Assembly (NCBI GenBank): GCA_017536555.1
Contig: JAFXHE010000001.1
Span: forward strand, 101,104 to 165,103
DNA length: 64,000 nt
DNA from: Alistipes sp.
Lineage (GTDB): Bacteria; Bacteroidota; Bacteroidia; Bacteroidales; Rikenellaceae
Direction of reading: 5' to 3'
Shown one piece after another: positions 25,197-63,392 of the stretch. Position 1 is the stretch's first letter. Every line of letters starts with the position of its first letter. A program made the translations under genes and the position numbers. The notes beneath the pieces were generated by a model. That model worked only from the letters and a program-made list of their open reading frames with translations. It was not told the DNA's origin and did not search any database.

Positions 25197-25574
25197 TTAC
25201 TCCTCCTTCTTAACGATACGACGCTCCTTGATACGTGCCTTCTTACCTGTAAGGTCACGCAAATAGTAGATGCGTGCACGACGCACAACACCATACTTGT
25301 TTACCTCGATCTTGTCGATGTGGGGTGAGTAGAGAGGGAAAATACGCTCTACACCAACACCGTTAGAGACCTTACGGATAGTAAACATCTTGGTCTTACC
25401 AGTACCCTTAATCTGGATAACTACACCACGGAAGCTCTGCAAACGCTCCTTGTTACCCTCTACGATACGGTAGGTTACTGTGATGGTGTCACCTGCACCA
25501 AACTGGGGCACATCGGCATCAGTCTTGGTCCACATCTGCTCGTTCACGAGTCTGATCAATGCATCTTTGTTCAT
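25197..25574 (-). CDS. rplS: 50S ribosomal protein L19
   Basis: 125 residues, normal length. L19 lies at the 30S-50S interface. Visible family segments are [51 protein letters not shown] and [21 protein letters not shown]. The ATG at 25574 ([13 protein letters not shown]) is chosen; the frame is open 12 codons further upstream, but that extension is not L19-like. The gene is monocistronic. Its consensus promoter lies about 310 bases upstream, giving an unusually long leader that carries a tandem repeat. Confidence 0.96.
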
Positions 25575-25703
25575 TGTTGCAACAAAAGTTAAATGTTTAG
25601 CGTTCAACATTATCGCTGTGCCTGCTCTACCATAGTGCCACCTTCGACACTAATCCTTTGGTGGTCGTTGGCTGCTACTCGCTCTCTGCTTACCTGCCAC
25701 ACA

Positions 25704-25814
25704 GGGCATCACCGCCCCGCAACATTGGGCTCACCGCCCTGCCACATTGGACTCACCGCCCTGCAACATTAGGCTCACCGCCCTGCAACATTGGGCTCAC
25801 CGCCCTGCAACACA
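25704..25814 (-). repeat. Five tandem units of about 22 bp in the rplS mRNA leader
   Basis: Units begin on the plus strand at 25704 (23 bp), 25727, 25749, 25771 and 25793 (last one incomplete). In mRNA sense each contains GGGC-GGTGA-GCCC, a 4-bp stem with a 5-base loop, separated by a short spacer such as AATGTTGCA. Units 3 and 4 carry GTCC and GCCT in the 3' arm, which still pair through G-U. The 22-bp period is not a multiple of three, so it does not encode a peptide repeat. It lies wholly inside the predicted transcript. Function is unknown; the rest of 25611-26050 holds only the promoter and a terminator. Confidence 0.85.
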
Positions 25815-25887
25815 GACAAGCAATCGTAACCGCCACTGCCACCCTCTTTTTAAGCCTGCACCCATTATAAGAGGTTGATACGGTGTG

Positions 25888-25918
25888 CAAAGGTAAACAA
25901 AAAATTCTCCTGAACAAA
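25888..25918 (-). promoter_or_regulatory. Consensus promoter of rplS
   Basis: On the minus strand TTTG (25918-25915) and TACCTTTG (25895-25888) are separated by exactly 19 bp. Transcription should start near 25882, about 308 bases before the rplS start codon at 25574. Confidence 0.8.
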
Positions 25919-25983
25919 AAAAAGTGTGAAAAATTGGGTAATTATGCCGAAAAACAGCCATTTATGGCACGCTATAAATTAAA

Positions 25984-26016
25984 GAGGTTGACAAAATAGC
26001 TATTCTGTCAACCCCA
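25984..26016. terminator. Terminator of the nadE-rnf transcript
   Basis: GGTTGACA (25986-25993) pairs with TGTCAACC (26006-26013); the interior AATAGCTATT is itself nearly palindromic, extending the stem. On the minus strand the tail is TCTTTAATTT; on the plus strand it is CCATTTTC. It lies 35 bases past the rnfA stop. Confidence 0.75.
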
Positions 26017-26050
26017 TTTTCTATATACGGCAAAAGCCTATATTATATAA

Positions 26051-63294: not shown

Positions 63295-63305
63295 TATGAT
63301 ATTAT

Positions 63306-63380
63306 CCACAATTCCTACGTCAGTATTAACTGCATCAGGTTCGAGGGTATAATCTCAGCCGATCAAGGCACCCCTTTGTT
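63306..63380 (-). promoter_or_regulatory. TPP riboswitch (THI element) aptamer
   Basis: The conserved blocks appear in order on the minus strand: GGGGTGC (63374-63368), CTGAGA (63358-63353), ACCC (63348-63345), GAACCTGAT (63342-63334) and CGTAGGAA (63319-63312). This is the pattern of the thiamine pyrophosphate aptamer. It lies between the operon promoter and the terminator at 63267-63294 and should switch thiD expression off when TPP is abundant. Confidence 0.95.
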
Positions 63381-63384
63381 TCCA

Positions 63385-63392
63385 CAAAGATA
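63385..63392 (-). promoter_or_regulatory. -7 box (TATCTTTG) of the thiamine operon
   Basis: On the minus strand 63392-63385 reads TATCTTTG. The start site would fall near 63379, so the transcript would begin at or within a few bases of the aptamer's 5' edge. Confidence 0.7.

Follow-up and report, generated by a model that had tools for sequence, protein, structure and literature searches.

A conserved, covarying leader RNA upstream of rplS in Alistipes and the repeat array in its variable arm

The rplS locus and the start of its mRNA

The window, i.e., the whole stretch of 64,000 nucleotides from Alistipes sp. that was analyzed, belongs to an incomplete genome of 1.63 Mb and contains the gene of the ribosomal protein bL19. 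The closest named relatives of this protein are from Alistipes and other Rikenellaceae, many of them from the ruminant gut, and rplS was detected in 94 of 101 genomes of the genus. The following features lie at the locus:

25197–25574, minus strand: rplS, ribosomal protein bL19, 125 aa, start codon at 25574
25576–25583, minus strand: palindrome GUUGCAAC, immediately 5′ of the rplS start codon
25604–25610, minus strand: AU followed by the P1 3′ strand GUUGA (25608–25604), with A25610 opposite U25870; placed by covariation and the RF03130 consensus AUGUUg
25614–25627, minus strand: P2 3′ strand (25627–25618) running into the near-invariant CAGCG (25618–25614), from leader comparison
25628–25634, minus strand: near-invariant UAUGGUA on the 3′ side of P4, from leader comparison
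25633–25656, minus strand: hairpin P4, with GGAUUA (25656–25651), stem UAGUGUC/GGCACUA and loop GAAGGU; six of seven pairs double-changed
25657–25851, minus strand: variable arm P3, 202 nt in the window when counted from behind GGGYR, hence including the remainder of the P2 5′ strand
25693–25812, minus strand: 22-bp tandem array of 5.4 copies at the tip of P3 (Tandem Repeats Finder, TRF)
25852–25861, minus strand: P2 5′ strand, partner of 25627–25618; double changes in eight of nine pairs
25870–25878, minus strand: P1 5′ strand UCAAC (25878–25874), partner of 25608–25604, followed by CUCU (25873–25870)
25888–25918, minus strand: rplS promoter, with TTTG (25918–25915), a 19-nt spacer and TACCTTTG (25895–25888)

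Re-reading of the letters bore out the exact TTTG-N19-TACCTTTG match at 25918–25888 of the minus strand that an earlier, sequence-only reading of this DNA had reported, and we take the promoter to be of the Bacteroidetes −33/−7 type. All 88 distinct leaders described below feature TAnnTTTG 8–9 or 18–21 nt 5′ of the leader core, and 76 of them a T(T/G)G box 18–21 nt upstream of this element; in the window, the core starts 8 nt past the promoter. The same reading had given the leader about 308 bases, and we arrive at about 307 nt if transcription begins right after the promoter. The rplS transcript would then start directly before the UAUCAACCUC stretch, and the 5′ end of the mRNA would be the leader itself.

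At the other end of the leader, a palindrome GTTNNAAC precedes the rplS ATG in 80 of the 88 distinct leaders, most commonly in the form GTTGCAAC; L090 and L105 have GTTATAAC and GTTTAAAC instead, respectively, both still palindromic. Switching between P1 and the GUUGCAAC ahead of the start codon was rejected by eye, since leaders with an altered P1 (e.g., GUCGA) retain GUUGCAAC. The window also carries an in-frame ATG at 25610, within the P1 3′ strand, which would add 12 residues to rplS; the conserved start is the one at 25574. Elsewhere in the window, a TPP riboswitch (63295–63385, minus strand) scores 61.6 bits, above the Rfam cut-off, and a perfect 10-bp repeat, TTAAGATAGT, is present in 3.3 copies at 1789–1821.

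Structure, covariation and spread of the leader RNA

Genus leaders were read at 90 loci, the window's own genome included, together with 80 loci of named L19 relatives, the genome set comprising one genome per species. A typical leader of the genus consists of the promoter, (C)CCGUAUCAACCUCUUAUA-GGG(C/U)(G/A), a variable stretch and a hairpin between GGAUUA and UAUGGUA, followed by CAGCG-AAUGUUGA, about 30 nt and then mostly GUUGCAACA adjoining the AUG. The window leader is accordingly composed of P1 (UCAAC-CUCU / AU-GUUGA), P2, the variable arm P3 and the hairpin P4 in its frame of GGAUUA/UAUGGUA. The full pattern matches 81 of the 90 genus loci; among the other nine, three show small changes, one has P4 and the 3′ part alone, UAUGGUA is altered in one, and P4 is missing from four that retain P1 and P2. 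P4 is thus dispensable. Leaders with P1 and P2 and without the GGAUUA/UAUGGUA hairpin are L091 (G079), L051, L058, L060 and L248, of which the very short L091 perhaps represents a reduced or ancestral form.

The 88 distinct leaders come from 95 pattern-matching loci, and the search pattern behind them called for the core, letters resembling GGATT and ATGGTA, and no more than 260 nt of arm; part of the invariance among the 88 thus follows from how they were chosen, and leaders with very long arms were missed. The retention of GGATT(A/G) and ATGGTA at 85 of the 90 genus loci, by comparison, takes in the pattern misses, which were inspected separately.

Covariation was measured in an alignment (A1) of 32 of the 37 leaders with a P3 of up to 46 nt, in which P1, P2 and P4 make up 22 pairs. 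Here, 89.1% of the cells are paired compared with 73.6% in shuffled alignments, 16 pairs are changed on both sides, and double-change cells number 117 versus 40.9 after shuffling. The covariation score is 0.464 versus 0.185 for shuffles (0 of 500 as high), and slid partners reach at most 0.143; the count of further pair types is the weaker measure (8 of 500 shuffles). P1 is paired in 98.8% of the cells with double changes in two of its five pairs (32 leaders), and it occurs in concerted variants, i.e., UCAAC/GUUGA, UCGAC/GUCGA, CCGAC/GUCGG and GAAAU/AUUUC. Over the 88 distinct leaders, in which the P1, P2 and P4 helices also hold, the second pair of P2 is C-G in 42, U-A in 33 and U-G in 13, and an inner pair of the same helix is weak, at 48% paired. 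RNAalifold, unprompted, recovered P1, P4 and most of P2. The covarying conserved parts are P1, P2 and P4, none of them within the array. The conserved rplS control RNA is a solid finding with overwhelming covariation, and the long structured leader that had been proposed from the window is upheld by its relatives. It has what generally characterizes ribosomal-protein leaders, namely a covarying 5′ UTR structure found consistently upstream of a ribosomal-protein gene. The core CUCU, near-invariant elsewhere, reads ACUU (CAACCACTT) in L005/L242 (G004) and in L252 (G400).

In the predicted fold of the window leader, P2, P3 and P4 form and the array makes up the tip of P3; removal of the array leaves the same outer arm. 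Thermodynamics does not predict P1 for the window (probability 0.014); the helix is supported by covariation instead, and a protein may be needed for its formation. P3 itself is without common sequence and spans 14–202 nt over the 88 leaders (about 400 nt in L253), its ends pairing better than shuffled copies in all 76 sufficiently long arms.

A covariance-derived model of the leader, R1, matches 161 of 180 genomes of the genus and 25 of 101 genomes of the family, the latter in 3 of 22 genera; in 198 sampled genomes of the order, it matches the window's own genome alone. These scans were run with strict filters, by which weak matches are lost. At all 49 fetched R1 matches that were checked, rplS is present at the locus. 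As the R1 matches come from three genera of the family, this genus included, the enlarged form of the leader seems to be a late invention within the family. On the window, R1 gives two separate matches of 34.2 and 25.0 bits, and the matches in its own genome are confined to this leader.

The near-invariant GGAUUA, UAUGGUA and CAGCG stand amid freely covarying stems, as would be expected for a folded pocket, and the letters of the first two are kept at nearly all genus loci (85/90). P2, P3 and P4 could in that case form a separate sensor, i.e., an aptamer for a metabolite or a second protein, nested in the L19 leader. However, R1 finds no second site away from rplS in the window's genome, and the exact GGATTA..TATGGTA occurs in six genomes at three places outside rplS leaders compared with five control matches. 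Moreover, junction nucleotides may merely aid folding, and 4 of the 90 loci as well as L248 are without P4. We consider such a nested sensor quite unlikely; P4 may act as a folding aid, as an extra contact for bL19 or in the sensing role just described.

The 22-bp array and repeats in other P3 arms

TRF assigns the window array a period of 22 and 5.4 copies, in agreement with the roughly five 22-bp units read before, and its score of 182 is the highest of the eight rows in the window, the runner-up reaching 66. In mRNA order, the 3′ arms of the units are GCCC, GCCU, GUCC, GCCC and GCCC, the last with an extra loop base; the stems are intact and the units differ as originally described. The sequence-only reading had taken the preservation of pairing through G-U as evidence of selection on RNA structure, an argument that carries no information, because both stem substitutions are C-to-U and such a change can only convert G-C to G-U. 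After random re-placement of the substitutions on positions of the same letter, 0.0 broken pairs were expected, and 0 are observed. A single unit folds with −8.1 kcal/mol (z −1.6; 16 of 200 shuffles equally good), and a nested fold of the whole array across units reaches −51.2 kcal/mol versus −34.6 kcal/mol for five local hairpins, the local hairpin pair probability being about 0.2 for four of the five units.

The repeated hairpin is not conserved between species, its pattern being found in 1 of 180 genus genomes, and 83 of the 88 distinct leaders are normal leaders without repeats (TRF score below 60), which had been named beforehand as an observation that would speak against the mini-hairpin idea. 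A dispersed repeat is ruled out, as the unit lies at one place in its own genome.

Each unit contains an AUG, and four overlapping upstream ORFs of 11–12 codons start at 25791, 25769, 25747 and 25725, so that the array might attenuate the translation of rplS. The array is, however, private to the window's genome and 22 is a non-coding period, and we find attenuation by these ORFs hardly credible. A second potential role for the array is suggested by the 3′ core strand AAUGUUG, which recurs three times at its unit junctions but is absent from the remaining 87 arms (frequency 0.0002 in shuffled units), and the second R1 match couples the true 5′ core with an array unit. The copies could thus act as decoys competing as 3′ partners for the P1 5′ strand. 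Yet the observation is post hoc, with 20% of shuffled units having one 7-mer or another in common with the remaining leader sequence; the P1 pairing probability is 0 for every copy, and the other arrays are without AAUGUUG. The motif is probably accidental in the window array, and a decoy function is very improbable.

Arrays with a TRF score of at least 60 occur in 5 of the 88 leaders, i.e., in the window (L002), L039, L046, L061 and L083, the background being 3 of 315 mostly coding windows. Among 95 further loci, 76 match the leader pattern and contribute 53 new arms, none with an array of score 50, and the 19 outside the pattern include three with arm arrays (L251, L252 and L253). The period is 22, 23, 22, 22 and 23 in the first five, and the best short period is 23 in each of the latter three. 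Grouped by leader type and unit, without a tree, these arrays fall into six lineages of period 22–23 (L002; L039; L046; L083; L252; and a group of L061, L251 and L253), and the units of the five first-found arrays are no more alike than shuffles (262 to 1000 of 1000 as good). L253 (G418) and L251 (G417) feature a very long P3 made of 74-nt blocks, each comprising three units of about 23–25 nt; in L251, the contig end falls inside the array.

Such recurrence of unlike units with one period, compared with a period of 22–23 in 3 of 40 TRF rows of other fetched sequence (rows partly overlapping, partly coding), could mean that the arrays are selected RNA modules, often mini-hairpins, that act, for instance, as a spacer or in multivalent protein binding. 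Unit hairpins compared with shuffled units point in this direction in five arrays (p of 0.065 in L002, 0.075 in L039, 0.06 in L046, 0.035 in L251 and 0.11 in L253), and fewer pairs than expected are disrupted by the substitutions that separate the units of L046, L061, L083, L251 and L253. However, no array is convincing alone, the hairpin value being below 0.05 in L251 only and ranging from 0.27 to 0.745 in three (0.27 in L061, 0.335 in L252, 0.745 in L083). For the substitutions, L252 is opposite in sign (2 broken pairs versus 0.5 expected), L002 and L039 are uninformative, and the low value of L253 (5 of 1000) stems from 74-nt blocks copied whole.

Moreover, the arms are mostly array-free, 23 long arms without TRF arrays give only a z of 1.8 at lag 22, and the lengths of 141 arms show no steps of 11, 22 or 23 nt. 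A helical-turn rule, by which 22 nt would correspond to 11 bp and thus one A-form turn, was discarded on the same lengths. Hairpin-forming DNA may itself favor slippage, and a mutational origin of the period is as open as selection, because arm lengths show no such step. Taken together, selected modules are an unlikely account of the arrays. It is likewise doubtful that P3 in Alistipes independently and repeatedly evolves arrays of unlike 22–23-nt units, mostly capable of mini-hairpins, as a convergent selected module whose unit number would tune the recognition of the leader by bL19 or another protein. The original proposal that the mini-hairpins form a repeated ligand site fell as it was argued and gained from the arrays of the same period in other P3 arms; with hairpin evidence across arrays that is at most suggestive, the idea may hold something after all.

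Runs of 7–9 G in the RNA sense are present in 9 of the 88 arms (L037, L039, L047, L054, L056, L061, L066, L067 and L068), amounting to 12 tracts in 5.1 kb, and runs of at least seven C, A or T in none of the 88; for comparison, 96 kb from 30 fetched rplS loci contain three G or C tracts. These are possibly slippage-prone tracts within a control RNA, and P3 altogether resembles an arm that is prone to slippage and tolerant of length changes.

The L19-leader core and its relation to known families

At the Rfam cut-offs, the window and 20 relatives yield just tRNAs and the distant TPP riboswitch, and a lax scan of the window returned noise. A hint at the nature of the leader came from a 116-nt stretch of another Bacteroidales rplS leader (L128), for which a lax scan gave RF03130 as one of two rows (15.6 bits; gathering cut-off 31.5 bits), its consensus cAACCUCU...AUGUUg pairing exactly as P1. 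RF03130 exceeds its cut-off in 1 of 40 genomes of the class, with 35.8 bits and 29 nt 5′ of the rplS start; it has no row at E 10 across 20 whole Bacteroidales loci, none in the window at the cut-off and none for 25500–26050 at E 5, and its only row in the window's genome (14.4 bits) is on another contig.

The core is nevertheless widespread when searched as a stem, N5-CUCU...A(U/C)-N5′, at most 70 nt from the rplS start: 63 of 79 Bacteroidales leaders contain it, one of them (L103) spuriously, versus a mean of 4.8 and a maximum of 11 in 100 block shuffles, and 16 are without the pattern. An alignment of 39 short leaders (A2), with anchors that fix some letters and not which strand accompanies which, is paired in 100% of the cells and contains 26 double-change cells versus 6.9 in shuffles (0 of 500). 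These 39 come from 65 loci (L107–L171), 18 being without the 5′ anchor, L157 without the 3′ anchor and two dropped as duplicates or near-duplicates; L127, L138, L156, L167 and one more are also omitted, and for L112, L113 and L117 the ends were placed manually. L120, L124 (Rikenella), L127, L156, L157 and L167 carry insertions of their own of about 40–80 nt between the P1 strands, and the core loop seems to be a repeated insertion site among Bacteroidales L19 leaders.

Mimicry of 23S rRNA by the leader was also considered and rejected: the 23S loci L213, L214 and L216 of two relatives are without AATGTTG, AATCTCT and TATGGTA, a single AACCTCT lies outside the 23S match, and the core pattern has few scattered matches (raw and uncontrolled).

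Our preferred reading, and probably the correct one, is a lineage-specific enlarged bL19 leader, whose P3 tolerates repeats made by slippage and in which the array is passive. P1 with its CUCU/AU internal loop would be the old core of the L19 leader, lying about 30 nt upstream of the start codon. By analogy, bL19 is the most plausible ligand, and excess bL19 would bind the core and reduce the translation of its own mRNA, as suggested by the leader class and the position of the core; ribosomal-protein leaders as a class offer the analogy for such feedback in the available text of PMC7247131. In Alistipes and two further genera of the family, the core loop houses a junction domain of P2, P3 and P4, of which P3 would mainly need to close, the 22-bp array being a tip insertion that lengthens it. 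A P3 tip tolerant of insertions could therefore allow replication slippage to build arrays and G-tracts. The passivity of the array is the weakest part of this reading, because arrays recur in P3 with one period.

The leader is an example of a small, putatively protein-binding RNA that accommodates an entire conserved domain in its loop, and its variable arm lets one ask, as in an experiment made by nature, how much additional RNA such a control element can bear. Moreover, the recurring 22–23-nt arrays raise a testable choice between slippage bias and a selected module. With the core located 5′ of rplS in about four fifths of the leaders tested, Bacteroidales ribosomal leaders appear to be under-catalogued, as illustrated by the Alistipes leader RNA, which covaries strongly, recurs in 161 of 180 genomes of this gut genus and still escapes Rfam.

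Among open-licence papers, a description of an Alistipes rplS leader was not found. The candidate closest by genus is HMP2_39, a putative ribosomal-protein leader mostly from Alistipes; in contrast to the window leader, it is 49 nt long and precedes L20, and L19 is unnamed in the available text of that report (PMC8040213). The Firmicutes L19_leader (RF00556) precedes the same gene, but has no match in the window's genome and none above its cut-off of 36 bits in 60 genomes of the class. In the available text of PMC7247131, no L19 leader is among the 20 novel motifs, and the structure of the examples from Flavobacteria is treated as fundamentally that of the Firmicutes L19 leader.

The Rfam family closest to the window leader is L19-Flavobacteria (RF03130, Rfam 15). 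The sequence-only reading had not recognized a known leader family, and in fact no Rfam leader is called in the window and the control RNA is absent from Rfam in this form; the P1 core, however, matches RF03130. Both RNAs lie upstream of rplS and near its start codon, and their strands cAACCUCU and AUGUUg are letter-identical, with CUC and U unpaired. Where RF03130 has 15 model positions between these strands, the Alistipes leaders (88 compared) have about 70–260 nt with P2, P3 and P4. Because of this inserted domain, the window leader stays below the 31.5-bit cut-off, and the splitting of the core by a long insertion is why the leader escapes Rfam; on its score it is not filed under RF03130, although it would work like an L19 leader.
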